A stretch of DNA of 26,953 nucleotides from a virus. Below are positions 504 to 22,120 of the stretch, piece after piece. Each line of letters begins with the position of its first letter. The first letter of the stretch is position 1. The stretch spans positions 1 through 26,953 of IMG/VR virus record IMGVR_UViG_3300031825_000062; one strand, written 5' to 3'. The notes under the pieces are model-generated. The model did no database searches, was not told where the DNA came from, and worked only from the letters and a program-made list of their open reading frames with translations. A program made the position numbers and the translations under genes.

Positions 504-1541
504 TTAGATGCCGTCGCGGTAGCCGATCAGCTCGGGGTACACGACCTCGACCACGCCCAGCCGGCCGAAGTAGGTGGTGAGCTGGCGGATGTCGCGGTAT
601 TCCAGCGGGGTGCGCTGGAGCGGCACCAGCGGGAAGCGGACTTTGTCCTGCTCCTTGGTGTACGCCATCATGCGGTCCGCACTGGCGGTACCGCGCTGGA
701 ACAGCCACTTCAGCGGCTGGATGTTCAGCGGGCGGCCGTTGATCGAGTTCGAGATCGTGTTCTGCTTCAGGTACTCGAGTACGCTGATGTTGCCGGCGCT
801 GCTGACCTTCATGCTCACCAGCGTGCTGAACTTCGCCGGCGGCAGCCGCAACTCGCTGGGGCAGTAGGCATATGCCGAAGCCGCCCACACGCTGGTCAGA
901 AGCTCGTTGACGTCCGCCAGGATCTGGTCCGGCGTCGCCGTTGCCCAGTTGCCGGTGGCGGCGTTCGTCAGATTGGTGACAACGGCGCTGTTCACCAGGC
1001 CGGTGACGCCGAGCACCGTGTCGCCGATGTACACCTGCTCATCGACGTCCATATTATGCTTCAGCTGCATGCCGGTGAACTTCTGCTGGTCCACCGGGCG
1101 GCCGAGCTTCTGGGCCGATTCCAGCTCGGGAATGGTCCACCCGATCTGCATGCCCCAGAGCGTCAGCGGGCTGGCCGTCTTGCCGATGTCGAGCGCGATG
1201 CCGGCGATGGCGGAGGCGTCCTTGCCGATCCACGACTTTCCGTTGGGCGAGGCGCCACCGGCAGCCGCGAAGCTGGAGTTGGTGAACGACGAGGTCTCAT
1301 CGGCGATCGAGACGTCTTCGCGCAGGTCGATGTCACGCGACCAGGTGACCGAGGCCAGCGGGCCGTGCAGCGTCTGGTCCAGGCGCTCCAGTTCGCCGAT
1401 CAGGAAAGCGCCGGTGCTGTCGATCGTGCGGCTGTCGAACGTCAGCATGTTGTCGCGCGTGCGGGCGCGGATGATCGCCGGGGCGTTGACCATGGCGATC
1501 GCAGCCGCCGCGGCCACGCGCGGGAGGATGATTTTGCTCAT
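504..1541 (-). CDS. Major capsid protein, DUF2184 family
   Basis: A 345-residue protein beginning MSKIILPRVAAAAAIAMVNA. The body shows features of the DUF2184 family (LTLWGMQIGWTIPELESA near residues 120-140; QVYIGDTVLGVTGLVNS near residues 180-200; a C-terminal PLVPLQRTPLEYRDI segment). Members are taken as HK97-fold major head subunits. I chose the ATG at 1541 because AAGGGG lies upstream. The open frame extends 54 codons further up, but that part is low-complexity and overlaps the cement gene. Its neighbours are the cement protein and the DUF2213 protease/scaffold upstream, the normal capsid trio. The Ala-rich N-terminus could be a processed arm; this is inference. Confidence 0.88.
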   Translation of the reverse strand: MSKIILPRVAAAAAIAMVNAPAIIRARTRDNMLTFDSRTIDSTGAFLIGELERLDQTLHGPLASVTWSRDIDLREDVSIADETSSFTNSSFAAAGGASPNGKSWIGKDASAIAGIALDIGKTASPLTLWGMQIGWTIPELESAQKLGRPVDQQKFTGMQLKHNMDVDEQVYIGDTVLGVTGLVNSAVVTNLTNAATGNWATATPDQILADVNELLTSVWAASAYAYCPSELRLPPAKFSTLVSMKVSSAGNISVLEYLKQNTISNSINGRPLNIQPLKWLFQRGTASADRMMAYTKEQDKVRFPLVPLQRTPLEYRDIRQLTTYFGRLGVVEVVYPELIGYRDGI

Positions 1542-1554
1542 TCTGGGTGACCCC

Positions 1555-2049
1555 TTAGATGTTGTAAGCGATCTCGACGTTGCCATTGGCATCGCCGGCG
1601 TTGGTGAAGATGGCGCCGGTGATGGCGATCGTGTTGGTGCTGTCGGCTGCCGCCTCGATGCCGCCGATCGGCTTGCCCGCCGCAGCAGCAGCCACGCGGA
1701 CATACACCTGGCCGTTCAGCGCAGGCGTGCCGGCGTTGTTTTTGACCGTCATGTAGCCGCGGCGCATGACATCACCGATGCCGCTGGCCGGCGGCGTCGA
1801 GGTGCCGAGCGGGTCCGAGGCCGCGCCGCCAGCGGTCGGGTACGGACGCACCAGCAAGCCATAGGCGGCCGTTGCGGCGTCGCCCGTGGTGAGCGGCACA
1901 AACTTGCCGGCGGCGATCTTGCCGAACAGGCCATAGCCGGGAAACGGCAGCGCCGAGTTCAGCGCGATCGATTCGACCGTCGCCTGCGACTGGCGCGAGA
2001 TATCCCCGGGGATGCCCGAGGCCATGCGATACAGGATTGCGTTGCCCAT
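1555..2049 (-). CDS. Structural cement (capsid decoration) protein, Gp24-like
   Basis: A 164-residue protein starting MGNAILYRMASGIPGDISRQ. The N-terminal GIPGDISR segment, the central FGKIAAGKFVPLT and YGLLVRPYP stretches, and a Gly/Ala-rich beta-type C-terminus resemble the phage 'structural cement protein Gp24' family. That family is normally encoded between a DUF2213 gene and a DUF2184 capsid gene, exactly as here. The ATG at 2049 has GGGAG upstream; the longer open frame is antisense-like sequence overlapping the DUF2213 gene. A role in stabilising the capsid surface is family knowledge, not visible directly. Confidence 0.8.
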   Translation of the reverse strand: MGNAILYRMASGIPGDISRQSQATVESIALNSALPFPGYGLFGKIAAGKFVPLTTGDAATAAYGLLVRPYPTAGGAASDPLGTSTPPASGIGDVMRRGYMTVKNNAGTPALNGQVYVRVAAAAAGKPIGGIEAAADSTNTIAITGAIFTNAGDANGNVEIAYNI

Positions 2050-2060
2050 GTGGCACTCCC

Positions 2061-3371
2061 TTAGTTGGCGGACCGGTCGGCCCAGTACTTGCGGTTGGCT
2101 GCGTTGAGTTCGGCGACCGAGCGGGCCTTGCCGAAATCCTTGGTCTTCGCGACGCCATCGTGCGTGCGCCCGTTGTTCTGCGCCTTGATAAGCTCGCTGG
2201 CGCCCATGAACGCGGCATGCACGAGCGCGGCGGGCAGCCTCTCGAAGTCGGTTGTCAGGCCACCGAGGAACGGGCCGATCGCGGCCTTGCCAGCGTCGGT
2301 CTGGTAGGCCAGATCGAGCGCCTTGCGCTGGCACTTGCACAACGCGGCGGCGCGGTCCTTGGTGACCATCTTGGCGTCCATGGTCGGCAGCTTGATGCCC
2401 GGCGCCAGGATCTCCGCGCGCGACGGAATGCTGGCCGCCGAGTCGCCGGTGTACAGGTCGACCTCGGCCTGGTTGAGCGTGCCGGCGGTATTGGGGTCGG
2501 TAAGGTCCCCGTCATCGCCGGTCTTCCCTTCCTTTTCCTTCGCCTCGCGGGCCTTCCGCTCTTCTTCCGATTCTTCGTCGCGCGCCTCGATCTTGGCGAG
2601 ACGGGAGTCCAGGGCCTTGACGGTCTTGAGGATCTGGCTGAGAGCGTCGCCGGTCTTGACCTCCTTCTCCTTGGCCTCGCGCGCCTCGCGCTCTTCCTCG
2701 GACTCCTCGTCCATGGCCTCGGCTTCGTTCGCCAGTTCCTCGGCGGCCGCTGCGTCCTTGGCCATGAACGCCGCGCGGATGCGGTCGGCGAAGCTGCGCT
2801 TGCCCTTCGGCTTGCTGTCAAAAGTCTTCATGTCTTCGGGTTCCTTATCGCCGATCGCGCAGCGCGGGCCGCACCGGCCGCGCTCGACGAGGGCTACGTG
2901 GTTGACAACGATGTTCCGCTGTACCCCGCGGCCGGGTGATACCTGTTCGTAGTCGGCCTCATAGCCGAGGCTGACCTCTTCGATGCCGTCCGTCTGGATG
3001 GCGTCGATGGCCTGCTGGTCGGTAACCATCAGGTCTGCAATCAGCAGGTCGTCCTCGATGCCGGTGCCGCGGCGCAGGTTGAGCATGGCGCCCTTGCCCA
3101 GCGCGGCGAAGTTGGCCGGGGTGACGAAGTCGTCCGGGTGGTCCAACGTCACCGGCTTGCCGATGCAGCTGGCCAGCGTCTCGGCACGGAACACCTCGTC
3201 TGGCATCCTGCTGATGCGGATCAGGCCGTCAGGGCCAGGCTCAACGGGCACCTCGCCAGGGCCGTACAGCATCTCGCCGGTGCGCGCGACGGGCACCTCT
3301 TCGCACAGCAGGAAGCCTTCGGGCGTCAGCGAGCGCTTCGGGCCCAGCTTCTGGACTGTGTAGAAGCGCAT
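2061..3371 (-). CDS. DUF2213 protein: probable prohead protease with C-terminal scaffold domain
   Basis: A 436-residue protein. The N-terminal 175 residues are the DUF2213 domain. It has prohead-protease-like candidates for catalysis: His78 in VTLDHPDD and Ser134 in EEVSLGYEAD, with a third conserved-looking segment NHVALVERGRCG (His158). Residues about 180-300 are extremely Glu/Lys/Ala-rich, contain two near-copies of an SEEER-x-AREAKEKE segment, and probably form a coiled-coil scaffold. A separate folded-looking C-terminus follows. Protease plus scaffold in one chain would fit self-cleavage during capsid maturation. The protease assignment is inference from motif order and the capsid-gene context. 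The start overlaps the upstream gene end closely, with GGGGAAA as ribosome site. Confidence 0.8.
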   Translation of the reverse strand: MRFYTVQKLGPKRSLTPEGFLLCEEVPVARTGEMLYGPGEVPVEPGPDGLIRISRMPDEVFRAETLASCIGKPVTLDHPDDFVTPANFAALGKGAMLNLRRGTGIEDDLLIADLMVTDQQAIDAIQTDGIEEVSLGYEADYEQVSPGRGVQRNIVVNHVALVERGRCGPRCAIGDKEPEDMKTFDSKPKGKRSFADRIRAAFMAKDAAAAEELANEAEAMDEESEEEREAREAKEKEVKTGDALSQILKTVKALDSRLAKIEARDEESEEERKAREAKEKEGKTGDDGDLTDPNTAGTLNQAEVDLYTGDSAASIPSRAEILAPGIKLPTMDAKMVTKDRAAALCKCQRKALDLAYQTDAGKAAIGPFLGGLTTDFERLPAALVHAAFMGASELIKAQNNGRTHDGVAKTKDFGKARSVAELNAANRKYWADRSAN

Positions 3372-3372
3372 G

Positions 3373-3591
3373 TCAGTTATTTCCCCATACGACGCCCAGC
3401 AGCTTGCGGCGCTTGCCGGCTCGCGCGTAGACGCAGCAGCCGAAGACCGCCAGATACACCAGGTCGTCTAACTTGCTGAAGCGCAACACGAGCGGGATGC
3501 GGATGGCAATACGGCGCGCCCCAATGAAATAGCCAGCCAAGATGCCGTAGATGAAACCGAGCAGAAACAGCGCGGGACCGAACTCTTTCAT
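3373..3591 (-). CDS. Small membrane protein of unknown function
   Basis: A 72-residue protein starting MKEFGPALFLLGFIYGILAG. Residues 5-25 form one clear hydrophobic segment, followed by basic residues and a second moderately hydrophobic stretch (LVYLAVFGCCVYA). The C-terminal tail is basic. The ATG overlaps the end of the morphogenesis gene and has GAGGAT just upstream, so it is probably translated by coupling. No family is recognised. Its location among head genes may be incidental. Confidence 0.55.
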   Translation of the reverse strand: MKEFGPALFLLGFIYGILAGYFIGARRIAIRIPLVLRFSKLDDLVYLAVFGCCVYARAGKRRKLLGVVWGNN

Positions 3592-3592
3592 A

Positions 3593-4339
3593 TCAATCCT
3601 CGGGAATCACAGGTTCCGGGTAGCAGCGGCAATTCGGGAACTGCCCGGCGTGCCCCGTCATGCCGTCCAGCGTCGGCGGGTCGGTCCAGGCCACGAACTG
3701 GCCGTTCATCTTGCGGTGCGACTCGCGCACGTCCGAATCGCCGGAGGTCCGCCAGAAGTACCCCGGCGAGCCGACATGCAGCGCCCGCGCCTCTGTCAGC
3801 GTCGAGGCCGTGCGCGCCACCTCGGTCCGGGCGATCAGGTCCGCGCGGCTCTTGGCCACGTCGCCCGATGCCTGGATAGCCTTCGAAATCTCCGACGCGC
3901 GCGTGCTGTCCTCGATCCCCTCGATGGTCAGCCGGTGCACGCGCTGCGCAGCATCCAGAGGGATGGACTTGATCAGCCCCACCTGCTCGGCCATCAGCGC
4001 CTGCATCGTGGCCCCGGTGGGAGCGCCCCGGATCTCGAGACGCAGCGCCCGGGACAGCTCCTTGGCCTTTTCCATCCAGGCCGCCTCGTCGCGCCGGTTG
4101 ACCTCGGTCAGCATGCGTGCCGCGGTCGCCTCAGCCCACGGTGTCAGCGCCTCGGCGTAGCGGCGCAGAAGCTGCTCAATCGTCGGCGCGGCGGCCGGCT
4201 CGCCAGGAGGAAAGCCATTTACCAGGGCGCCAACCTGCTCCGCGATCAGCCGGAGCTGCGTCCTGTACACCCTTTCCGGTCCGCTTGTTCTGACCGGATT
4301 CCGGCGTTTTTTCCGGTCGGTCGTTCGGGTCATCAGCAT
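3593..4339 (-). CDS. Phage head morphogenesis protein (SPP1 gp7 / Mu gpF family)
   Basis: A 248-residue minor head protein. The diagnostic C-terminal region reads ARTEVARTASTLTEARAL, then WRTSGDSDVRESHRKMNGQF and HAGQFPNCRCYPEPV, the conserved Asp/His/Cys-rich pattern of the Mu F / SPP1 gp7 family. These proteins act with portal and scaffold in procapsid assembly or DNA entry. The N-terminus is helical and basic (RTTDRKKRRN). The first 164 bases overlap the portal gene's end in another frame. The downstream sequence YRTQLRLIAEQVGALVNGF still looks like real protein, so I keep the ATG at 4339, but a start a little later is possible. Confidence 0.88.
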   Translation of the reverse strand: MLMTRTTDRKKRRNPVRTSGPERVYRTQLRLIAEQVGALVNGFPPGEPAAAPTIEQLLRRYAEALTPWAEATAARMLTEVNRRDEAAWMEKAKELSRALRLEIRGAPTGATMQALMAEQVGLIKSIPLDAAQRVHRLTIEGIEDSTRASEISKAIQASGDVAKSRADLIARTEVARTASTLTEARALHVGSPGYFWRTSGDSDVRESHRKMNGQFVAWTDPPTLDGMTGHAGQFPNCRCYPEPVIPED

Positions 4340-5759
4340 TGGGCAGGTCCGTCTCGGCGGCCGGCGGCGGCTCGTTCTCCGCCTGGGTGATCTGGTCGTC
4401 CGTGATGCTGGTGAACACCCCGGTGATGTGGCTCGACTGCTGCAGTTCCTTCATGGCCGTGGGCCTGTCGACCAGGTCCGCGTCCAGCGCCTCGACCACG
4501 GCCTCGGTCGTCGTCTTGGCGATGTCGGCCTTTTCCTTGTCCGACAGTTGCCAGAGCGACGTGAAGGCGTAGGCGAAGCCTTCGGGCGGCTTCGTGCCAA
4601 GCTCGGAGCGGATCAGCACCTCGTAGAGCCGCGTGACCGGGCTGCGCAGCCGGCGCTCCTGCTGCTGCTTGATGTTGTCGTAGTAGGTCCGCAGGTCCGA
4701 CTCGCCGGTCGAGTTCAGGCCGGCCGGCGACTGGCCGAACAGGCGCACCAGCGGGATCTGCAGCGCGCCCGACAACTGCTGGCCAAACTGCATCAGCACG
4801 TTGTCCAGCCCCGAGAACGCGTATTGATGTGACGTGAACTCGTCCTTGGCGTCGATCAGGGTGATGCCCTCATTCGACTGGAACCGGCGGATCATCTCCA
4901 CGTGCTTCAGCAGACCTTCCAGCGCCGGGCCGCCTGCGGCGATCACCTCGCGCAGCTTGTCGATGCTGAGCGTGCGCAGGTGCGCCTTGTAGACCAGCTG
5001 CGCGGCGCCGATGGTGGTGCTGTCGAACGCCACCAGCCGGTCGATCAACCGCTCGATGACCGACTGCCCCCACAGGTTCTCGGCGATCTTCTGCCAGTAC
5101 GGTAGCTCCACACCATCGATCCGCAGCACACGGCTGTAGTGGATGCGCTGGCGCCGGAGCGCCATGCTGTCGGCCACCACGTCGTAGTACTTCGGCATAC
5201 CCATGTCCGGGCCCAGCTCGGTCACCAGGTCCTCGAGCGACGGCTGCACCAGCCAGCGGTCCAGCACATACAGGCCCTTGAATTGGTCCTTGTGGATCGA
5301 GTCCAGCCGCAATGGCGTGGCCGGGTTCTGCCCGTCGATCAGCATCACTGCCAGGGCGCCGCCGTACAGGCGCGACCACTTCACGGTGTCGTTCAGCCTG
5401 TCCCACAGCGCCATGCGCTCGAAGCCGGCGTTCACCTTGGCTCGGTCGGCCGGGTCGATCTCGGCGTCCATCTCAGTGCCGGCACGGGTCATATCGTCCG
5501 CCACCACGTCCACCGCCTGGCCGACCACCCACGATGACCGGTACATCGCCTCGAGCTGGATGCGGTTCCGGCTGATGAAGTCAAAGCCGTAGCTGAAGGC
5601 GGACGCCTGATTGTTCGTGCCTAGGCCGACGCGCGCCTCGAAGTTCTGGAAGCTATCGCCGCTCATCCAGCGCTTGCCGCTGCCGGCCGCCTGCTGCTGA
5701 CCGTGCACGGGCACGGCCATGCGCGTGTCTCGCACGGTCTTGCGGTCTCTGCGTTTCAT
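4176..5759 (-). CDS. Phage portal protein, DUF1073 family
   Basis: A 527-residue portal. Recognisable segments are SYGFDFISRNRIQLEAMYRSSWVVGQAVDVVADDMTR as separate pieces near the N-terminus, LYGGALAVMLIDGQ near residue 130, GQSVIERLIDRLVAFDST near residue 230, and SPAGLNSTGESDLRTYYDNI near residue 350, typical of DUF1073 portals. The portal forms the dodecameric DNA channel at the capsid vertex. The start at 5759 overlaps the terminase stop as ATGA. The last 55 or so residues are polar and low-complexity and overlap the next gene. Some databases name this domain after the anti-CBASS protein Acb1; no Acb1-like nuclease motif is seen here, and the position after TerL supports a portal. Confidence 0.9.
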   Translation of the reverse strand: MKRRDRKTVRDTRMAVPVHGQQQAAGSGKRWMSGDSFQNFEARVGLGTNNQASAFSYGFDFISRNRIQLEAMYRSSWVVGQAVDVVADDMTRAGTEMDAEIDPADRAKVNAGFERMALWDRLNDTVKWSRLYGGALAVMLIDGQNPATPLRLDSIHKDQFKGLYVLDRWLVQPSLEDLVTELGPDMGMPKYYDVVADSMALRRQRIHYSRVLRIDGVELPYWQKIAENLWGQSVIERLIDRLVAFDSTTIGAAQLVYKAHLRTLSIDKLREVIAAGGPALEGLLKHVEMIRRFQSNEGITLIDAKDEFTSHQYAFSGLDNVLMQFGQQLSGALQIPLVRLFGQSPAGLNSTGESDLRTYYDNIKQQQERRLRSPVTRLYEVLIRSELGTKPPEGFAYAFTSLWQLSDKEKADIAKTTTEAVVEALDADLVDRPTAMKELQQSSHITGVFTSITDDQITQAENEPPPAAETDLPNADDPNDRPEKTPESGQNKRTGKGVQDAAPADRGAGWRPGKWLSSWRAGRRADD

Positions 5760-7171
5760 TGTGCGAGCTTCGCCCAAGTTTCGATGGATCGGTCGCCCGG
5801 CGCGAAGCACATAACGAATGCGTCGGCCAGGTTCGGGGACGGCACCGGGCCGCCTGGGCGATTCGGCTTCGCCAGGTCCTTCTTGCTCTCGACCTTGACG
5901 CGGCCGTTGCCGTCGTAGTCACGCTTCGGCGTGGCTAGCTCGTCGATCAGCCGCTCGATGTTCGGGCAGTCGCTGGTGATGCTGATCAACTGGTCGTCAG
6001 GGAACCGCTGGCCGCGCTTGACCGCGTTGTACGTGTTGCGGAACCGGTCCGCCACCGCCCACCAGGCCTGCGCCTTGATGTTGGCGAACATGTCCTTGTT
6101 GGTGATGTTCCGCTCGTATTCTTCGTCCGGCTCCCAGACGGCCGCGCCAGCATTGAACTTCTGGTAGAAGACCGTCTCGACGTCGCCATCGGTACGGCGC
6201 TGCTCGTTGATCTCGCCGAACTTGGCGCCCGCGCTGGCACCCACGCCGATGCTGTCGTAGGTGATGCCCGCTCCGCGGCGCCGGGCCTCGGCGTAGGTAC
6301 GGGCGCAGCTCTGCAGCAACTCGTCCTCGCCGGCCTTCCACTCGTCCGCCCAGCTCACCACCGAGCCATGGGAATAGACATTGGCGCACTTATCCGGGCC
6401 GCCGTCGGCAATATCGAAGCCGATTCGCTTGGCGCCAGAGGGCTCAAATCCCAGCTCCAGGTGCGCGTCGATCGCGGCCATGATCCACGACCGCTTGATA
6501 ACTGAGCCCTCGTCGTCATCCTTCGGCACGCCCAGGTAGATATGGGCGAACTCTTCCTCGTCCTCGGCCTTGGCAGCCTCGATCACGTCGAGCATCGTCC
6601 GGCTCAGGAACGGGTTCTCGTCGTAGTTGATCTTCCGGACGAGCGTATTCGGCGGCGGATTCAGCACGAAGCGCTTATAGACGAAGTCCGTGGCCAGCTT
6701 CGGGTTGAAGATGATCCAGATCTGCGAGCCTGCCTTCCGGATCGTCGGCTCGAGGATCTTCCACTGTTCCTCGGTCAGGTTGTGCGCTTCCTCGATCCAG
6801 AGGATGTCGATGCCTTCCAGCGACTTGATTTCGTCGATGGAGCGCCACAGACCATAGAACAGGAACTCGCTCTCGGTCTCCCGGCCGATGATCTTGTTGT
6901 CCAGCACTCGAAACTGGCCGGCCAGGCCGAACCGGTTGATCTGGACCTTCAGCAGCGTGTAGACCGACTCCTCGATCTTGTTCTGGAACTGCCGCACGCA
7001 CAGCACGCGCAACTTGTAGGTCGACGTCAGGAAGACCGCGAAGCCGGCGGCGTCCCATGACTTCGTCGAAGCCCGCCCGCCGACCAGCACGCGGTTACGC
7101 GCATGGGCAGCCCAGAACGGGCGCAGCGCCGGATTAAGCGTCGGCCGGCTCGGTATCGTCGGACTCTCCAT
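5756..7171 (-). CDS. terL: Terminase large subunit (PBSX / Terminase_3 type)
   Basis: A 471-residue DNA packaging motor. The ATPase half has a Walker A-like GGRASTKS (residues 31-38), Walker B IDILWIEE (121-128) and a coupling-type IIFNPK (153-158). The nuclease half begins with GFDIADGGPD (Asp253), followed by TYDSIGVGAS and a C-terminal NLADAFVMCFAP with another acidic site, consistent with an RNase H-like nuclease. The length is usual for the family. The gene overlaps the small subunit by 38 bases and the portal by 4, so all three are probably translationally coupled. Very high confidence. Confidence 0.96.
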   Translation of the reverse strand: MESPTIPSRPTLNPALRPFWAAHARNRVLVGGRASTKSWDAAGFAVFLTSTYKLRVLCVRQFQNKIEESVYTLLKVQINRFGLAGQFRVLDNKIIGRETESEFLFYGLWRSIDEIKSLEGIDILWIEEAHNLTEEQWKILEPTIRKAGSQIWIIFNPKLATDFVYKRFVLNPPPNTLVRKINYDENPFLSRTMLDVIEAAKAEDEEEFAHIYLGVPKDDDEGSVIKRSWIMAAIDAHLELGFEPSGAKRIGFDIADGGPDKCANVYSHGSVVSWADEWKAGEDELLQSCARTYAEARRRGAGITYDSIGVGASAGAKFGEINEQRRTDGDVETVFYQKFNAGAAVWEPDEEYERNITNKDMFANIKAQAWWAVADRFRNTYNAVKRGQRFPDDQLISITSDCPNIERLIDELATPKRDYDGNGRVKVESKKDLAKPNRPGGPVPSPNLADAFVMCFAPGDRSIETWAKLAQ

Positions 7172-8763: not shown

Positions 8764-8966
8764 CGTTTTTGCTCCCCGTCATCAAAATTCTTGCAGCGCC
8801 GGCCGTGCTCGCGCCGCTTGCCGCCCGGCAGCAGTTTCGTGCAGATCGTGTGCGTGGTGCCAATGAGCCGGGCCGTCTTCTCCCAGATGCAGCCTTTGCA
8901 GCTGCGCGCCTCGGTGCGCTCGTAGACCTCGGCCGGGTCGCGGTACATGTGGGCCGGCAGCGTCAT
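8760..8966 (-). CDS. Small Cys-rich, probably zinc-binding protein
   Basis: A 68-residue protein with four cysteines at positions 23, 26, 42 and 58 (SCKGCIWEK, TICTKLLPGG, RRCKNFDDG). The spacing could bind one zinc ion. The C-terminus is strongly basic (KRREHGRRCK). Start and stop overlap the neighbouring genes as ATGA on both sides, so it belongs to a tightly coupled operon. No named family is recognised; comparable small CxxC proteins are common in the nin-type regions of lambdoid phages. Confidence 0.7.
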   Translation of the reverse strand: MTLPAHMYRDPAEVYERTEARSCKGCIWEKTARLIGTTHTICTKLLPGGKRREHGRRCKNFDDGEQKR

Positions 8967-13614: not shown

Positions 13615-13633
13615 GGGGGCTCCCGCCGTGTCT

Positions 13634-13647
13634 AGACATAATCGTCT
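13634..13647. promoter_or_regulatory. Operator site 1, AGAC-N6-GTCT
   Basis: AGACATAATCGTCT, a 14-base dyad with perfect 4-base half-sites. It lies just downstream of the -10 of the leftward promoter and overlaps CATAAT (13637-13642), a possible -10 for the rightward cI promoter. One of five copies of this dyad, all in the switch region. Confidence 0.75.
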
Positions 13648-13652
13648 CAACA

Positions 13653-13681
13653 ATACTAAGGCGCATCCGCCCGAAATGCAA
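13653..13681 (-). promoter_or_regulatory. Leftward early promoter for cro (PR-like)
   Basis: On the minus strand TTGCAT (13681-13676) and TAGTAT (13658-13653) are separated by 17 bases. The promoter is bracketed by operator 1 downstream and operator 2 upstream, so a bound repressor would block RNA polymerase from both sides. Element quality is moderate; the position supports it. Confidence 0.6.
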
Positions 13682-14380
13682 GACACAAACGTCTTGATGC
13701 CATCGGTAGCATCCGGTGCCATGGACAGAGCACTTCAAAACCTGATAGCGAACCTCAAGGCGCTGATCGGCCCGGACAGAACGTTCAAGAGCGAAGCGGC
13801 AATGGCTCGGGCGACGAACGTTCAGCAGAAATCGCTGAATCGCCTGCTGAAAGGTGAGCAGACTCCCTCGATCGAACTGATCGAACAGATTGCAAATGGC
13901 CTGGGCATCCCACTGGTGCAGCTGCTGTCGGTCGTGCGCCCAGACCAAGACGACAACGACTTCGCCATGCTGCCGCAGCTTGACGTCAAGGCATCCGCGG
14001 GAAATGGAAACTTGGTCTTCATCGAGACTGAGCGCGGTCGGCTGGCATTTCGCCGGGATTTTCTGCGTCAGGAAGGCGTAAAGGAAACAGACGCAGTAGT
14101 TATCTATGCGGACGGCCAGAGCATGGAGCCGACCATTCCCGATGGCGCCGTACTGCTGGTCGATCTCGCAAAAAAGGACATGGCTAATAATGCAATCCAT
14201 GTAATACGCGTCGATGGGGAGATTATGGTAAAGCGGCTGCGTCGGGAGATCGGCGGCGGCATCATGATCGTATCCGACAACCCAGACAAGCACAGGTATC
14301 CGGACATTCCAGTGCCACCCAGCAAAGAGGACCATATTTCCGTGATTGGACGCGTCTTCTGGATGGGAGCAAGGCTATGA
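13676..14380 (+). CDS. CI-like phage repressor with S24 (LexA-type) autocleavage domain
   Basis: A 234-residue repressor from the ATG at 13676; ATGs at 13697 and 13721 are alternatives, and no strong ribosome site decides between them. Residues about 18-85 are an XRE-type helix-turn-helix (EAAMARATNVQQKSLNRLLK). A linker carries the likely Ala108-Gly109 cleavage site (VKASAGNG). The peptidase domain has Ser149 in GQSMEPTIPDG and the general-base Lys186 in GEIMVKRL. It maintains lysogeny and should be inactivated after RecA activation by DNA damage. It is divergent from cro, binds presumably to the AGAC-N6-GTCT sites, and is coupled by ATGA to the next gene. Confidence 0.92.
   Translation: MQDTNVLMPSVASGAMDRALQNLIANLKALIGPDRTFKSEAAMARATNVQQKSLNRLLKGEQTPSIELIEQIANGLGIPLVQLLSVVRPDQDDNDFAMLPQLDVKASAGNGNLVFIETERGRLAFRRDFLRQEGVKETDAVVIYADGQSMEPTIPDGAVLLVDLAKKDMANNAIHVIRVDGEIMVKRLRREIGGGIMIVSDNPDKHRYPDIPVPPSKEDHISVIGRVFWMGARL
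13681..13694. promoter_or_regulatory. Operator site 2, AGAC-N6-GTCT
   Basis: AGACACAAACGTCT within the longer dyad AAGAC-N6-GTCTT. It starts 47 bases from operator 1 and abuts the -35 of the leftward promoter. It also falls just inside the cI frame if the earliest ATG is used, which would allow autoregulation by the repressor. Confidence 0.78.
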
Positions 14381-14784
14381 GCCTATTGGGACCACTTCGA
14401 CGACTTGCCAAATGCAGCGTCGCAATACTGACGATTTCTGCTACCTGTGACGTAAGTGCAGTGCAAACGGACGATGTGCTCGCGGCTTTTGCCCCTACAT
14501 ATGACAAATCATATAAGGTTGTAATAATGAGCCAGCACCCTGCATTTGAAAAATATTGCGGCAAGGGCTGGTTTTCAGGACTGATCTTGCAGAATGAAAA
14601 GATCAAAGGTATGCCGGGCCTCTCAAACTCGGTCGGTTGCTGGTCTGTCGATAATGACGCCAGATACCTAAATTTCAGGTATTTCAGTCTTGAGCTTGGA
14701 CGAATAGTCGAGTTCAAGATCGAAGGTGAAGCAACACGGCCGATGAAGATGCGCGAAGACGCACCACTTCTGTACGACCGATAG
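14377..14784 (+). CDS. Secreted hypothetical protein co-expressed with the repressor (moron candidate)
   Basis: A 135-residue protein starting MSLLGPLRRLAKCSVAILTI. The N-terminus has the charge and hydrophobic core of a signal peptide, with a plausible cleavage after VSA near residue 28. The mature part is about 107 residues with a few cysteines (YCGKGW, VGCWSV). Its ATG overlaps the cI stop, so it should be made in the lysogen. The sequence is visibly richer in A and T than its neighbours. No family is recognised. Surface modification, superinfection exclusion or another lysogenic-conversion effect is inference. Confidence 0.7.
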   Translation: MSLLGPLRRLAKCSVAILTISATCDVSAVQTDDVLAAFAPTYDKSYKVVIMSQHPAFEKYCGKGWFSGLILQNEKIKGMPGLSNSVGCWSVDNDARYLNFRYFSLELGRIVEFKIEGEATRPMKMREDAPLLYDR

Positions 14785-14868: not shown

Positions 14869-14923
14869 AAACGTTTTCGTCTTGATTAGACGTTTTCGTC
14901 TTGTTAAGAAGACGTTTTAGTCT
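14869..14923. promoter_or_regulatory. Three-site operator cluster before the rightward early operon (OL-like)
   Basis: Three dyads of the AGAC-N6-GTCT type: 14869-14882 (left half degenerate, AAAC), 14888-14901 (perfect) and 14910-14923 (perfect). All share the centre GTTTT(C/A). They start 19 and 22 bases apart, about two helical turns, as expected for cooperative repressor dimers. They lie 38 bases before the first gene of the rightward operon. Promoter elements must lie among them, for example TTGATT at 14883, but I cannot fix a convincing -10. Confidence 0.8.
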
Positions 14924-14960
14924 TAGCATGGTTCCATCAACTCACCGATGGAGCCCGCAA

Positions 14961-15389
14961 ATGCCCTCCCCAGCCGTCCACCCCACCCTTGCCGCCGCGC
15001 TGCGCCCGTTCGCGCCGGCCGCCCAGTCTGAGCACCACGAGTACGACGTCCATTTCCGCGGCGCGCCGCTGGTGAACGTCGTTGCCACCTGCGCCGCGCA
15101 TGCCCAGGAACAGGCCATCGACTTCGCCGAGGAACAGTTCGGCTACGTGCCCGAGATCACCGCCATCCGTCGCAAGGTGGCGCCGCTGCGCGCCCGGGTG
15201 AGCCGCGACGAGCGCCGCATCGGCTCGGGCGGCCTGGTCACGTTCCGTGGCAAGGACCGCGACGAGGTGTACGAGGTCGCACTGGACCGCAAGAACGAGA
15301 TCGACTCGTACCGCTCGCCGGCCGTGAAGGCGCAGTACCAGGACGGCGACGACTGGGTGGTCGAGCTTCGTTTCTACGGTCTGGACTGA
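14961..15389 (+). CDS. Hypothetical protein, first gene of the rightward early operon
   Basis: A 142-residue protein starting MPSPAVHPTLAAALRPFAPA. It has an Ala/Pro-rich N-terminus, then a mixed alpha/beta region (VHFRGAPLVNVVATCAAHAQ; AIDFAEEQFGYVPEITAIRR) and a C-terminus ending DDWVVELRFYGLD. The ATG at 14961 has GGAG seven bases upstream. An ATG at 14928 and a TTG at 14901 are in frame, but the latter lies inside the operator cluster. No family is recognised. As the first gene under repressor control it may be an early takeover factor; this is inference. Confidence 0.75.
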   Translation: MPSPAVHPTLAAALRPFAPAAQSEHHEYDVHFRGAPLVNVVATCAAHAQEQAIDFAEEQFGYVPEITAIRRKVAPLRARVSRDERRIGSGGLVTFRGKDRDEVYEVALDRKNEIDSYRSPAVKAQYQDGDDWVVELRFYGLD

Positions 15390-16489: not shown

Positions 16490-17329
16490 ATGTCCACCGC
16501 TGTAGCAGACGTCATCGACGTCGACGCGAGCAACACGCCGCGCACCGCGGCACTGCCTGCCCACCGTCAAACCGGCGCGCTGGCCACCACCACGCCCGCT
16601 GATCTGCTGCGCATTGCGGTGGAAGGCGGCGCCGACCTCGACCGCCTGGAGAAGCTGATGGAGCTGCAGGAGCGCTGGGAGGCAAAGCACGCCAAGCGCG
16701 CTTATGACGCGGCGTTCGCAGCGTTCAAGGCCGAGGCGGTCACGATCATGAAGGGCAGGAAGGTGACCGATGGCCCGTTGCGCGGGAAGAGCTACGCCGA
16801 GCTTCACGACGTGGTCAACGCTGTGACGCCGGCACTTTCGAAGCATGGCCTGTCGTCCTCGTGGAAATTGACCAAGGACGACCGCGACTGGCTGGAGGTG
16901 ACGTGTTTCCTGCGTCATGTCGACGGCCACGAGGAAAGCGTGTCGATGGGTGGCCCGCCGGATACCGGCGGTGCGAAGAATGCCATGCAGGCCCGGGCTA
17001 GCACCAAGACCTATCTCGAGCGGTACACCCTGAAGGCCATCACCGGATTGTCCGAGCAGGAAGACGACGACGACGGTGCTGGCGGTGCAGGGGGAGAGCC
17101 CGAGCAAGCACGGCGCGGGCGCCAGGGTGACAACGGCGCCGCGAAGACCGGCACCGGCCAGGCCTACAGCCAGGCGGCGTTCGACAAAAACAAGGCCCAG
17201 TGGCGCGAAATGGTGCTGTCGCGCAAGAAGACCCCTCAGCAGATCATCGCGCTCGTCGAGAGTAAGGGCGCCCCAATGACCGAAGAGCAGAAGAACACCA
17301 TCGATGCATGGAGCCATGAAAATGACTGA
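16490..17329 (+). CDS. erf: ERF family single-strand DNA annealing protein
   Basis: A 279-residue recombinase. The ERF core spans about residues 55-190: FAAFKAEAVTIMKGRKVTDG, YAELHDVVNAVTPALSKHGL, SSSWKLTKDD, and the diagnostic GGAKNAMQARASTKTYLERY with TLKAITGLSEQEDDDD. The C-terminal part is an acidic or polar linker plus a small helical domain. ERF-type proteins (P22 Erf) anneal complementary strands and promote circularisation and recombination. It overlaps the nuclease gene by 8 bases, the usual annealase-exonuclease pairing. Confidence 0.93.
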   Translation: MSTAVADVIDVDASNTPRTAALPAHRQTGALATTTPADLLRIAVEGGADLDRLEKLMELQERWEAKHAKRAYDAAFAAFKAEAVTIMKGRKVTDGPLRGKSYAELHDVVNAVTPALSKHGLSSSWKLTKDDRDWLEVTCFLRHVDGHEESVSMGGPPDTGGAKNAMQARASTKTYLERYTLKAITGLSEQEDDDDGAGGAGGEPEQARRGRQGDNGAAKTGTGQAYSQAAFDKNKAQWREMVLSRKKTPQQIIALVESKGAPMTEEQKNTIDAWSHEND

Positions 17330-18932
17330 CCACACTGTCCACAACCTGGTGCAGGGCACCCCCGAGTGGCAGCACTTCCGCCTGTCGTACTTGGGCGCGA
17401 GCGAGGCGGCCGCCATGCTGGGCCTGTCCAGCAACATGAAGCGCACTGAGCTGCTGCACATCAAGCACACCGGCACGCCGAAGGAATTCAGCGACTTCGT
17501 GCAGGAGCGCATTCTGGACCATGGCCACGAGGTCGAGGCGCTGGCCCGGCCGCTGGTCGAGGAAGATCTGGGCGAGGATCTGTACCCGGTCACCTGCTCG
17601 GACGGCGACCTCTCGGCCTCGTGCGATGGACTGACGATGGCCGGCGACACGGCGTTCGAGCACAAGCAGTGGAACACCGATCTGGCCGCCGGCGTGCAGG
17701 CGGGCATCGTGCCGGACAGCCACATGCCGCAGTGCCAGCAGATCATGATGGTGACCGGCGCCGAGCGCGTGATCTTCGTCGTCTCGGACGGCACGCGCGA
17801 TAACTTCGTGGCCACCGAGGTGAAGCCCGACCCGGAATGGTTCGATCGTATCCGCGCCGGCTGGGACCAGTTCCGGAAGGACCTGGCCGACTATGTGCCC
17901 CAGGCCGTCGAGGTGAAGCCCGTGGGCCGCACGCCCGAGACGCTGCCCGCCCTGCTGCTCGAGGTGACTGGCCGCGTCACGGCCAGCAACCTGACCGAGT
18001 TCCGCGAGCATGCCCTGGCTGTCTTCGCCGGCATCAACCGCGAGCTGTCCACAGATCAGGAATTCGCCGACGCCGAGAAGACCGTGAAGTGGTGTGGCGA
18101 GGTCGAGACCCGGCTGTCCGCCGCGAAGCAGCATGCGCTAGCCCAGACCGCCAGCATCGACGAGCTGTTCCGCACGATCGACGACATCAGCGCCGAGGCC
18201 CGCCGCGTCCGGCTGGATCTGGACAAGCTGGTGACGCAGCGCAAGACCGAGATCAAGGAATCGATCATCCGTGGCGGCCGGGAGGCATACGAGAAACACA
18301 TCCAGGCGCTGAAGAACGAGGCCGGGGGCGCATGGGTGCCGCTGGGCATGCCCGACTTCGCGGGCGCAGCCAAGGGCAAGCGCTCGGTGGCGAGCATTCA
18401 GGATGCCATCGACACGGTGCTGGCGAACGCCAAGATCGAGGCCGACGCCTCCGCGAAGCGCATCCGCGCGAACATCGCCTTCCTTGATGGGGCGATTGCC
18501 GGCTACGAGTTCCTGTTCGCCGACCGCGCCGGCCTGTGCACCAAGCAGCTCGAGGACCTGCGCCTGGTGGTCGACAGCCGTATCGCCAAGCACAAGGCCG
18601 ACGAGGCCGCCAAGGAAGAGGCGCAGCGCGAGCGCATCCGCAAGGAAGAGCAGCAGAAGCTGGAGCGGGAAGCCGCTGAGAAGGCTGCTGCGGAAAAGGC
18701 TGCCGCCCAAGTACTGGCGCCCACGCCGGCCCCGGCACCTGCGGCGCCGGCCCCCGCTGCCCGCAAGGTGGCCGCGCCCGTGACGCAGATCGCCAGCCGT
18801 CAGCGCCAGACCCCGCGCCCCGCCGACGCCGAGATCATCAGCGCGCTGGTCAGCCACTTCGAAGCCACCGAGGCCGAGGTGATCGGCTGGCTCTGCGAGC
18901 TCGACTTCTCGTCCTTCGACAACGCCGCATAA
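17322..18932 (+). CDS. YqaJ-type viral recombinase (lambda exonuclease-like) with long C-terminal extension
   Basis: A 536-residue protein. The first 200 residues are the PD-(D/E)XK nuclease: QGTPEWQHFRLSYLGASEAA, a conserved Glu70 in LDHGHEVEA, Asp102 in SASCDGL and Glu113-x-Lys115 in FEHKQW. Residues about 215-420 are helical. About 420-500 are a Lys/Glu/Ala coiled coil and then an Ala/Pro-rich linker, before a small C-terminal domain. Typical YqaJ exonucleases are 200-350 residues, so this is an extended version. It generates single strands for ERF. I chose ATG 17322 because GGAG lies 8 bases upstream; 17316 and 17304 are less well placed. Confidence 0.88.
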   Translation: MTDHTVHNLVQGTPEWQHFRLSYLGASEAAAMLGLSSNMKRTELLHIKHTGTPKEFSDFVQERILDHGHEVEALARPLVEEDLGEDLYPVTCSDGDLSASCDGLTMAGDTAFEHKQWNTDLAAGVQAGIVPDSHMPQCQQIMMVTGAERVIFVVSDGTRDNFVATEVKPDPEWFDRIRAGWDQFRKDLADYVPQAVEVKPVGRTPETLPALLLEVTGRVTASNLTEFREHALAVFAGINRELSTDQEFADAEKTVKWCGEVETRLSAAKQHALAQTASIDELFRTIDDISAEARRVRLDLDKLVTQRKTEIKESIIRGGREAYEKHIQALKNEAGGAWVPLGMPDFAGAAKGKRSVASIQDAIDTVLANAKIEADASAKRIRANIAFLDGAIAGYEFLFADRAGLCTKQLEDLRLVVDSRIAKHKADEAAKEEAQRERIRKEEQQKLEREAAEKAAAEKAAAQVLAPTPAPAPAAPAPAARKVAAPVTQIASRQRQTPRPADAEIISALVSHFEATEAEVIGWLCELDFSSFDNAA

Positions 18933-19534: not shown

Positions 19535-19894
19535 ATGCAACAACTGCAAATCCCGCCGCTGTCCGAAGGCGAAACCTATATCGGTGCTATTGGCGATAAG
19601 AACGGCGACTTCTATCACGTGATTCTGCTGCCGGGCGACAACGACGATGCGACGTGGCAAGCCCAGATGGAATGGGCAAAGTCCATCGGCGGCGACCTCC
19701 CTAGCCGCGTCGAGCAGGCAATGCTGTGGGCCAACTTCCGCGACCTATTTCAGAAGGATTGGTACTGGAGCAACGAAGTTCACCACAACAACTCCGGCTG
19801 GGCCTGGTCTCAGAACTTCGACTACGGTGACCAGGACAACTACCTCCAGTACTACGAGCTTCGCGCTCGCGCCGTCCGCAGATTGCCGATTTAA
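19535..19894 (+). CDS. DGR target protein 1 (C-type-lectin-like, DUF1566-type)
   Basis: A 119-residue protein. The N-terminal part (YIGAIGDKNGDFYHVILLPG) and centre (WAKSIGGDLPSRVEQAMLWA, then DWYWSNE) match small phage DUF1566/C-type-lectin-like proteins. Residues 88-117 are the variable repeat, beginning GWAW and ending ELRARAVRRL just before the stop. Residues 92, 94, 96, 97, 99, 101-104, 106 and 107 correspond to template adenines and would line the ligand-binding face in known DGR lectin folds. There is no signal peptide or tail-fibre domain. CGGAG sets the start. A 77-base non-coding gap before it may hold a promoter, but I see no clear one. Confidence 0.92.
   Translation: MQQLQIPPLSEGETYIGAIGDKNGDFYHVILLPGDNDDATWQAQMEWAKSIGGDLPSRVEQAMLWANFRDLFQKDWYWSNEVHHNNSGWAWSQNFDYGDQDNYLQYYELRARAVRRLPI
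19795..19885 (+). repeat. DGR variable repeat VR1
   Basis: 91 bases aligned without gaps to the template at 20919-21009. Ten differences, every one at a template adenine (TAT to TCT, and AAC to GAC three times, to TAC four times and to CTC once). The last 30 bases (19856-19885) are identical to the template and include the GC-rich initiation-of-mutagenic-homing segment. Confidence 0.96.
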
Positions 19895-19924
19895 CCCGTC
19901 ATCAATTTTCAAGGAATACCTGCA

Positions 19925-20386
19925 ATGACGATCACCCTTGAATCCATCCGAGCAGAGCACAGCCGTATTGGCGATCTGATCGCAATCTTCGAGAGACAAG
20001 CCCGGACCTCGTATGTCGTGCCTGGCGCCACCATCGAGTTGAAGCATGGCGAACGCTACGCCGGCATCGTTCTGGATGTGAATGGCGCTTTCAGCCATCA
20101 CCTGATCCTACTGCCGGGACAAGCCGATGACGTGAGTTGGACGGATGCCAGCAACTGGGCCGAACAGCAGGGTGGTTCCCTCCCGACGCGCAGCGAGCAA
20201 TCGCTGCTGTTTGCGAATCTCAAGCAGGAGTTCGAAGAGCGCGCTTACTGGTCGGGCGAGAAGCATGCGTCGAACGACGGCTGGGCCTGGTATCAGTACT
20301 TCGACCTCGGTTACCAGTTCCACAGCACCCAGCTCACCGAGCTTCGCGCTCGCGCCGTCCGCAGATTCATTCCTTCAGTAATTTAA
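19925..20386 (+). CDS. DGR target protein 2 (paralogue of target 1)
   Basis: A 153-residue paralogue of target 1 with an extra N-terminal helix (MTITLESIRAEHSRIGDLIA). The shared core runs YAGIVLDVNGAF, HHLILLPGQADDVSW, GGSLPTRSEQSLLFANL and AYWSGEKH. Residues 119-148 are the variable repeat; changed positions are 125, 127, 128, 130, 132-135, 137 and 138. AAGGA lies upstream of the ATG. It is followed closely by the avd gene. Both targets are fed by one template. The ligand is unknown. Confidence 0.92.
   Translation: MTITLESIRAEHSRIGDLIAIFERQARTSYVVPGATIELKHGERYAGIVLDVNGAFSHHLILLPGQADDVSWTDASNWAEQQGGSLPTRSEQSLLFANLKQEFEERAYWSGEKHASNDGWAWYQYFDLGYQFHSTQLTELRARAVRRFIPSVI
20278..20367 (+). repeat. 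DGR variable repeat VR2
   Basis: 90 bases aligned without gaps to the template. Thirteen differences, all at template adenines, including three AAC codons changed at both A positions (two CTC and one TTC). Identity resumes at the GAG codon (20339) through AGATT; the following base differs (C against G), marking the right border of homology. Confidence 0.96.
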
Positions 20387-20400
20387 CCATTTGATCCACC

Positions 20401-20775
20401 GTGGCACTGCACACCCAACTTCCGATCTATAAGGCGGCATACGGTCTTCTGGACGTTGTCACCGACTTGGTCAAAAACATGGCCCGCGATTTCAAGCGTA
20501 GCGTCGGCGAGAAGATCAACTCCGAGTGCATCGAGATCATGGTGCTTGTTTTCCGCGCCAATGTCGCTGTCGACAAGTCGCCGCATCTGAACGAATTGCT
20601 CGAGCGACTGCAGGTCATTGAACTGCTGTTGCGCCTGTGTATGGACAAGCGGCTGATCTCCAGGCCGGCCTATGCCAAGGCCATCGAGATCACGACCGGG
20701 ATTGGTAAGCAGGCCAACGGGTGGAAGAAGTTCGCAAATCGCCCGCTTCATGGAGGTCAAGGCCGCCATGACTGA
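20401..20775 (+). CDS. avd: DGR accessory variability determinant (Avd)
   Basis: A 124-residue, almost wholly helical and basic protein, read from a GTG at 20401. Segments such as AAYGLLDVVTDLVKNMARDF, EKINSECIEIMVLVFRANVA and LQVIELLLRLCMDKRLIS fit the four-helix Avd fold, and it ends in a basic tail (GWKKFANRPLHGGQGRHD). In the Bordetella phage DGR, Avd binds reverse transcriptase and template RNA and is essential for cDNA synthesis. Position between the second target and the template is the classical order. The stop lies inside the reading frame of the reverse transcriptase. Confidence 0.88.
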   Translation: MALHTQLPIYKAAYGLLDVVTDLVKNMARDFKRSVGEKINSECIEIMVLVFRANVAVDKSPHLNELLERLQVIELLLRLCMDKRLISRPAYAKAIEITTGIGKQANGWKKFANRPLHGGQGRHD

Positions 20776-22120
20776 GCGATCTTTCAATCTGGTCATGCCG
20801 CTGGCTCACAAGGCCACCGACAGGCGCATCACGGATACCTACGGCAGCAGCCGGGAAGCGTCCGGCGCAGTTCCCCGGCTGAGGAATCGTCCGGGCGACG
20901 TGGATAGCATGATGGATACGGCTGGGCCTGGTATCAGAACTTCAACAACGGTAACCAGAACAACAACAACCAGAACAACGAGCTTCGCGCTCGCGCCGTC
21001 CGCAGATTGGAATGGAAGGACCGCGTTCTCGTTCGTCGAGCTAGTCGAAGCATACTTCGACTGCCGGCGAACGAAGCGCAACAGTACCAGCGCGCTGCAG
21101 TTCGAGTTAAACCTGGAACACAACCTTCGGCATCTGTTCGACGAGCTGTCCGAAGGCAGCTATACGCCTGGTCGCTCGAAGTGTTTCGTCATCACGCGCC
21201 CGAAACCACGCGAAGTATGGGCTGCAGAGTTCCGCGACCGGATAGTGCATCACCTGCTTTACAACAAGATTGGGCCTCGCTTCGAGCGATCCTTCATCGC
21301 AGATTCATGCGCCTGCATCAAAGGCCGCGGCACGCTGTACGCCGCCCGCCGGTTGGAGGCGAAGGTGCGCAGCATCACGCAGAACTGGTCACGTCCCGCG
21401 TTCTACCTGAAGTGCGATCTTGCCAACTTCTTCGTCAGCATAGACAAGCACGTCTTGCGCGAGTTGCTTTTCGCCAAGATCCGAGAACCATTCCTGCGCT
21501 CGCTGACAGAGCTCGTGCTGATGCACGATCCACGGGACGACTTCGTCTACCTGGGCGATCCCAGGATGATGGATCGGGTACCTCCGCACAAGCGCCTGAT
21601 GGAACAACCCGCGCATCTCGGGCTGCCCATCGGCAACCTGTCATCGCAGTTCTTCGCGAATGTGTACCTGGACACGCTCGACCAGCGGGCCAAGCATGTC
21701 CTCGGAGCGCGGCATTACATCCGCTACGTGGATGACTTTGTGCTGCTGCACGAATCACCCCAGTGGCTCAATGCTGCGCATGACGACATCGAGGCGTTCC
21801 TTCCGCGCCGACTCGGCGCTCGCCTGAACCCGACCAAGACCATCCTGCAGCCGGTCAGCCGCGGCATCGACTTTGTCGGACAGGTTATTCACCCGTGGGT
21901 CCGCACCACCCGTCGCCGCACCGTCAATGTCGGTGAGCGGCGCCTTGCACAGATGGATGCAACCGACGTGCATGCGGCGGCAAACAGCTACCTCGGCCTG
22001 CTGCGCCAGGCAACAAGCAGCCGCGTCGACCGCGCTCACCTCGCGAAGATCATTCGCTACCGAGGGCATGCCGTCGATTTCGGCCTGACCAAGGCATACC
22101 TCCGTCCTACCAACGCCTGA
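20768..22120 (+). CDS. DGR reverse transcriptase
   Basis: The conserved domain begins at FSFVELVEAYFDC (residue 87) and continues through PKPREVWAAEFRDRIVHHLL (from 145), KCDLANFFVSID (Asp217), LPIGNLSSQFFANVY (286-) and IRYVDDFVLL (YVDD 320-323). The IGxxxSQ form of motif 4 is the hallmark of DGR enzymes rather than group II intron or retron types. It makes mutagenised cDNA from the template. The start is unresolved: no ATG, GTG or TTG exists in frame between the template and the conserved domain. It must begin at 20768 (GGAGG/AAGG upstream, overlapping the avd stop), at 20909/20912, or at a rare codon. Confidence 0.93.
   Translation: MTERSFNLVMPLAHKATDRRITDTYGSSREASGAVPRLRNRPGDVDSMMDTAGPGIRTSTTVTRTTTTRTTSFALAPSADWNGRTAFSFVELVEAYFDCRRTKRNSTSALQFELNLEHNLRHLFDELSEGSYTPGRSKCFVITRPKPREVWAAEFRDRIVHHLLYNKIGPRFERSFIADSCACIKGRGTLYAARRLEAKVRSITQNWSRPAFYLKCDLANFFVSIDKHVLRELLFAKIREPFLRSLTELVLMHDPRDDFVYLGDPRMMDRVPPHKRLMEQPAHLGLPIGNLSSQFFANVYLDTLDQRAKHVLGARHYIRYVDDFVLLHESPQWLNAAHDDIEAFLPRRLGARLNPTKTILQPVSRGIDFVGQVIHPWVRTTRRRTVNVGERRLAQMDATDVHAAANSYLGLLRQATSSRVDRAHLAKIIRYRGHAVDFGLTKAYLRPTNA
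20919..21009 (+). repeat. DGR template repeat TR
   Basis: Begins CGGCTGGGCCTGGTATCAG and contains ten AAC codons in the frame that matches the targets, then the constant segment from 20980. AAC codons cannot become stop codons by changing the adenines, the usual design of DGR templates. Both variable repeats differ from it only at its adenines. It lies between avd and the conserved part of the reverse transcriptase and overlaps the latter's open frame. Confidence 0.96.

Follow-up and report, generated by a model that had tools for sequence, protein, structure and literature searches.

Phage DGRs are presented in print mainly as tail-tropism devices. In Roux et al. 2021 (PMC8144416), most viral DGR targets of three clades bear a tail-protein annotation, and no known domain outside the VR is present in 71% of target sequences. 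Eight phage DGRs distant from the one described here (BPP-1, BalMu-1, Bacteroides F4, phiARM81mr, Bise, ACA1, VHML, and FP_Brigit) served as controls, and all adjoin, on the same strand, baseplate, tail, virion, or lysis genes, with the neighbors of F4 being the least clearly named. In BPP-1 (mtd-avd-TR-brt), the target, Mtd, has a tail-protein annotation and is encoded on the same strand as its neighbors, which we take to be late genes. Burkholderia phage Magia (MT701587) is much closer to the locus reported here, with the same cassette in the same position, an RT sharing 76.5% identity and a target 2 sharing 62% identity. The submitters of Magia labeled two genes "lectin fold domain protein, possible/potential DGR target" and left their function open. 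Magia differs in having a third target just after CI and a recombination gene annotated as RecT-like, where the present locus has ERF. Shewanella phage vB_Sb_QDWS and Pseudomonas phages Cruim01, SC_8_H2H8_2017, Haboob, phPA-G, and LPPA56 also carry an early-strand cassette with small targets, although the targets of the Pseudomonas phages are mostly larger (~160 to 220 amino acids [aa]) and several have a strand-strand-helix N-terminus. The RTs of these seven named phages are about 62 to 76% identical to ours, and TR/VR pairs are found in each of them. Bise and Haboob both infect P. aeruginosa, giving two DGR placements in one host species.

The window analyzed is the entire 26,953-base IMG/VR record IMGVR_UViG_3300031825_000062, and the phage sequence is therefore incomplete. 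It is a fragment of a temperate phage. Genes for the major head protein (3.4e-86), protease, head morphogenesis protein, portal (4.1e-142), and large terminase (8.2e-74) occupy positions 504 to 7171 on the minus strand, and no tail genes were identified within the 26,953 bases. A complete DGR, consisting of two targets, Avd, an RT-15 RNA, TR, and RT, lies on the plus strand at 19535 to 22120. Each target ends in a 91-nucleotide (nt) copy of TR (VR1, 19795 to 19885; VR2, 20278 to 20368). As the first-pass annotation had described, the targets are 119 and 153 residues long (19535 to 19894 and 19925 to 20386), and they follow genes for an ERF single-strand annealing protein (16490 to 17329; PF04404, 1.3e-14; phrog_155, 1.8e-36) and a YqaJ/RecE-like exonuclease (17304 to 18932; PF09588, 1.7e-13; phrog_7655, 2e-182) on the plus strand, opposite the head genes. 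Downstream of the targets are Avd, a four-helix accessory protein (20401 to 20775; bAvd, 2.5e-11; phrog_3206, 1.9e-28), the structured RT-15 RNA (RF03018; 20737 to 20919; 159.8 bits, E value of 1.2e-39, gathering threshold of 82), which abuts the 91-nt TR (20919 to 21009), and the RT (21010 to 22120; RVT_1, 1.3e-13; phrog_1423, 7.1e-111), all on the plus strand. The RT is 32% identical to BPP-1 Brt (E value of 8e-33), and the motif IGNLSSQ, which we take to be the DGR RT signature, is invariant in eight of eight aligned RTs.

The TR/VR pairs of the window were found by a repeat search blind to adenines. VR1 differs from TR at 10 positions, all of them TR adenines, and VR2 at 14, of which 13 are TR adenines and 1 is the last base; only 27 of the 91 TR bases are A. 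Read in the VR frame, TR contains ten AAC codons (counted by eye), each of which can yield 15 residues and no stop, corresponding to ~6 x 10^11 protein variants. Judged by its parts as read from the sequence, the cassette is a DGR without reservation. It resembles that of BPP-1 in the order target-Avd-TR-RT, in the restriction of VR differences to adenines, in the C-terminal VR, and in the possession of Avd, but it has two targets (two to four in most relatives) and lies in an early operon.

The two targets are predicted to be small proteins with a C-type-lectin fold of the Lcl_C (DUF1566) kind, and Yan et al. 2019 (PMC6642488) name DUF1566 as the Pfam domain that DGR targets carry most often. 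Their own matches to Lcl_C (PF07603) are weak, with E values of 0.0041 and 0.00072 and scores of 17.8 and 20.3 bits against a Pfam cut-off of 34.9, and Lcl_C matches 128 of 143 diverse targets of the RT clade at an E value of 0.01 or better. The AlphaFold2 model of target 2 (43 sequences; mean pLDDT, 82.5) has an N-terminal helix at residues 5 to 24 followed by a C-type-lectin-like domain, and its best matches are Legionella Lcl (Foldseek, 1.8e-3; Z score of 8.8; root mean square deviation [rmsd] of 3.8 over 109 residues) and Bdellovibrio Bd2740 (Z score of 10.4; rmsd of 2.5 over 97). A profile of 19 targets searched against the PDB found Lcl at 6.8e-7. The model of a Pseudomonas-type target (L113; mean pLDDT, 89.3), with a strand-strand-helix N-terminus, aligns with Legionella Lcl (PDB 8q4e) with a Z score of 14.0 and an rmsd of 3.0 over 120 residues. 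The likeness, in both profile and fold, is to the C-terminal domain of Lcl (PF07603, DUF1566); Lcl is a collagen-like adhesin by its NCBIfam name, whereas the phage targets are not long enough to include a collagen-like part and have no evident export signal. A fold search of BFVD gave no match at an E value of 0.001 or better; animal-virus proteins of the C-type-lectin kind made up most of its top rows, and a single DUF1566 protein from a phage appeared at rank 48.

The targets were also claimed to lack tail domains and signal peptides, and no sign to the contrary was found for either point. Neither window target matched a tail domain in Pfam or PHROGs, and neither was flagged by a crude scan for hydropathy and lipoboxes, which across 274 targets (one of the 275 was left out for want of a start) found a hydrophobic stretch in 12 and a lipobox in none. 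Homology of the N-termini to a tail or baseplate docking domain, which would have spoken for a place in the virion, was not found in Pfam, PHROGs, NCBIfam, PADLOC, or the PDB, and the structural alignments span only the lectin domain (residues 35 to 150 and 48 to 197). The N-terminal parts, i.e., the helix of target 2 and the strand-strand-helix of the Pseudomonas targets, could nevertheless be docking pieces that went unrecognized. None of the 143 diverse targets matched a virion-named PHROG, and PADLOC gave only a single marginal match among them (type IV Cas5, 0.0072). Of the 143, 139 matched phrog_4245 ("unknown function"), whose length of 583 columns suggests that larger proteins with the same C-terminal domain may exist.

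A CI-like repressor is encoded at 13697 to 14380 on the plus strand (phrog_4, 9.6e-47; ATG at 13697, alternative ATG at 13676), and the CI/Cro intergenic region (13633 to 13695) contains an operator-like palindrome, AGAC-N6-GTCTT, at 13680 to 13695 and a weaker copy, recognized by eye, at 13633 to 13648. Two more operator-like palindromes (14887 to 14902 and 14909 to 14924) mark a putative pL at 14887 to 14924, just 5' of the first plus-strand gene of the operon (ORF 14961 to 15389), and a further copy of the motif lies inside RT (21442). On both strands of the window, the motif has six matches versus 0.12 expected in shuffles. These predicted sites look as CI operators at pR and pL would. Their presence at the start of the operon predicts repression in the lysogen, and the cassette is expected to be part of an early transcript that is repressed there. 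The DGR thus probably sits in a CI-controlled early operon (left, pL-type). That its targets are early, stand-alone, and not evidently tail proteins is well supported, although early transcription alone is compatible with packaging into virions. Of the two modes of expression suggested by the first-pass annotation, early expression agrees with the operon, and a promoter of the targets' own that is active in the lysogen finds no support: a search around 19.5 kb turned up nothing promoter-like, the regions upstream of target 1 from 47 loci align poorly, and no element common to them is obvious in the first part of that alignment. A 135-aa ORF (14377 to 14784) without a PHROG match lies between CI and the putative pL, the position of rex in lambda.

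A scan of viral and genome contigs with an RT alignment retrieved at least 160 further RT loci; a scan of viral contigs with target 2 alone found no relative, probably since exact peptide matches were required. From the listed RT loci, a core set of 133 was formed, comprising the window, the seven named phages, and L014 to L138. The RT relatives are ~59 to 86% identical. The loci are not all independent, as L051/L094, L062/L096, L063/L097, L083/L132, L074/L075, L084/L085, and L076/L077/L079 look like the same or nearly identical phages, with identical targets, and L018 and L020 have target 2 in common. At least 275 VR-bearing targets were found in 122 of the 133 core loci, with a median length of 154 aa, a 5 to 95% range of 117 to 211 aa, and a maximum of 274 aa by heuristic starts; measured from stop to stop, 11 of the 275 are longer than 300 aa. 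Six of the 300 VRs in all loci had no VR-containing HMM match and were dropped, and one target set left out L007r, targets outside 100 to 280 aa, and those with an internal stop. The VR lies 0.7 to 24 aa from the target C-terminus. All core targets found share the strand of RT and precede it, and core loci contain neither a VR downstream of RT nor, by the target HMM, a target relative on the opposite strand (the VR finder covered the RT strand, and the target HMM and whole-record target search covered the other). In 98 core loci, the sequence available upstream spans at least 9.9 kb; of these, 57 contain two VRs, 33 three, 4 four, 1 one, and 3 none. An adjacent pair of targets is present in 89, and in 33 a VR precedes RT by more than 2 kb. 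The 11 of 133 core loci without a VR comprise 5 with RT at a contig edge, 3 with 10 kb upstream (L016, L090, and L100), and 3 with partial flanks, and target-like HMM matches are present in four of the VR-less loci (L090, L100, L128, and L133). L016 and L017 have a core-clade RT and a TR with no VR in 10 kb and 5.4 kb upstream, respectively. Outside the core set, some VR-bearing open frames are much longer, e.g., 597, 866, 1428, and 3027 codons.

Fifty of ~90 phage and viral records, mostly long ones, were chosen for whole-record searches, and strands were tallied by hand. Among the matches listed, the target family is present in all 50. The large terminase (phrog_2) was found in 20 records and lies on the strand opposite the targets in all 20 (for G003, which had only a weak target match, the RT strand was used). 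Neither the window targets, which lie opposite the head genes, nor those of the 20 terminase-bearing relatives therefore have the late or tail-module placement of an Mtd-type tail target. A CI-like match of at least 45 bits was detected in 37 records, in each case on the same strand as the targets and upstream of at least one of them. ERF was found in 9 records and RecT in 4 with the Pfam models, always on the target strand. In G035 and W02, the target pair is at the record end opposite CI. No plasmid match was obtained at an E value of 1e-50 that would point to a plasmid home for the cassette. The description of small, stand-alone, lectin-like targets in an early operon, made for the window alone, was thus confirmed there and holds across the RT clade. 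Medea1 and U7 have the target pair in the early operon, and no RT of the core clade was found in them; the first targets of Medea1 and Cruim01 are identical at 154 of 158 residues before the last 45 and at 34 of 45 within them. The Medea1 and U7 pairs are either frozen targets kept after loss of the DGR or targets served in trans. Their retention without a clade RT suggests that the proteins are useful even when frozen.

Close relatives indicate that diversification is recent. L034 and L035 have the same 365 nt of target sequence leading up to the VR, within which 14 of 35 adenine sites differ, as against 0 of 72 other sites. In L044 and L046, the 353 nt preceding the VR agree throughout, and the VR itself shows differences at 10 of 26 adenine sites and at 0 of 66 other sites. 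Over all 26 pairs compared, 93 of 796 adenine sites differ, versus 0 of 1767 other VR sites. Nineteen pairs show no difference, and most of these are probably the same phage sampled twice. Since near-identical phages differ only at TR-adenine sites, the DGR appears to have acted recently, and the sequences of L034/L035 and L044/L046 point to ongoing A-to-N diversification in these close relatives. The pair comparison and the repeat comparison of the window are free of adenine bias; the share of VR mismatches at adenines over the core loci (3346 of 3421) is partly circular, since the VR finder penalized a non-adenine mismatch by -3 and an adenine mismatch by -0.2.

A cassette aimed at small lectin-like proteins amid early recombination genes suggests that the phage probably randomizes something used inside the cell. 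Upon infection or induction, the early operon would be transcribed; Avd and RT would copy the RT-15/TR RNA, placing random bases opposite adenines; and the cDNA would be integrated into the VRs, perhaps with help from the annealing protein encoded in that operon. Progeny would then inherit two to four small binding proteins in altered form, and these may work within the infected cell, ahead of virion assembly, as randomized binders of variable protein partners. We put the probability that the targets are early, nonvirion, intracellular binders at roughly 0.55. The likeliest partners would be host anti-phage proteins or proteins of resident or rival phages rather than a cell-surface receptor. 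The position of the genes is what hints at such partners. An anti-defense role, with host anti-phage proteins as the partners, can be proposed only tentatively, and proteins of rival phages are a rather remote candidate. It is equally tentative to suppose that this clade of temperate proteobacterial phages has a cytoplasmic, antibody-like repertoire of lectins that disables variable host defense (or resident-prophage) proteins. The CRISPR-linked host breadth in the accessible part of Roux et al. 2021 (PMC8144416) fits receptor use for DGR phages generally and is counted against an intracellular role.

The main rival is that the lectins are made early yet packaged, as a decoration, at the baseplate tip, or for injection, in which case adsorption or entry would still be what the DGR tunes. 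The structural or lysis genes beside all eight control DGRs argue for this, outward-facing proteins, Legionella Lcl for one, have a similar binding fold, and the N-terminal helix of target 2 could dock or oligomerize. Packaging is nevertheless unlikely, given the strand opposite the large terminase in 20 of 20 records, the lack of any virion-named family among the 143 diverse targets, and the CI-like matches, which share the strand of the targets in all 37 records that have one. Genes of the superinfection-exclusion type are common in the early regions of prophages, and in several relatives (e.g., G011, G018, and W01) a remote target lies ~1 to 2 kb from the CI match, as would suit lectins expressed in the lysogen from leaky or internal promoters that exclude superinfecting phages or block them at the surface. 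This explanation is rather improbable in view of the repression predicted by the operator-like sites at the putative pL, the failure to find a promoter-like site near 19.5 kb or an obvious common element in the first part of the alignment of 47 upstream regions, and the outcome of the crude export scan for both window targets and the clade.

The position could instead serve mutagenic homing, through the annealing protein or replication, and say nothing about where the targets act. The cassette does adjoin ERF and YqaJ, and in E. coli, editing by the BPP-1 DGR varies with its location and with the direction of replication (PMC12875486). However, the eight control DGRs manage without such a position, ERF or RecT was detected by those Pfam models in only 13 of the 50 records, and targets persist in the early operons of phages without an RT of the core clade, which together make this a very doubtful explanation. 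An intracellular binder made early is the reading preferred here.

The DGR parts, the DUF1566-type target domain, and the marking of the Magia genes as possible DGR targets are already known. A search of titles and abstract starts in the open literature, with subscription papers outside its scope, found no description of early-operon DGR targets of this RT clade, and we found no earlier report there of such a class. With its early, stand-alone targets on the strand opposite the virion genes, the RT clade gives the class of DGR targets that have no known domain outside the VR a concrete and testable shape, and its members exist as isolated phages (Magia, Haboob, Cruim01, and QDWS). If the targets act intracellularly, phages would possess a means of targeted protein diversification directed at partners within the cell, and a pull-down could identify the partner. 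A counter-defense use of a DGR, rather than one in adsorption, would if true be the first such to our knowledge.

The RT frame of the window (20672 to 22120) is open across the whole TR, with no ATG, GTG, or TTG right after it, and TR is likewise spanned by an open RT frame in 113 of 122 core loci. The RT either starts upstream and is translated through TR or uses an unusual start. The stretch from Avd to TR was considered as a conserved N-terminus of the RT at the protein level, which is disfavored by apparent frame shifts in four loci (L009, L011, L119, and L120) and by the RT-15 match; these favor conservation of the RNA, which may explain the open frame. In L044 and L046, target 1, which ends at 8878, lies at the end of a 389-codon open frame. 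Shewanella phage QDWS (OK094664.1) and Hujiaoplasma phage zrk29-1 (OP650936.1) have the same length (47902) and nearly equal match figures and are probably one phage filed under two hosts. A core-type cassette on a contig titled as a Verrucomicrobiaceae MAG (L105), amid Proteobacteria, reflects either a host jump or a binning error.
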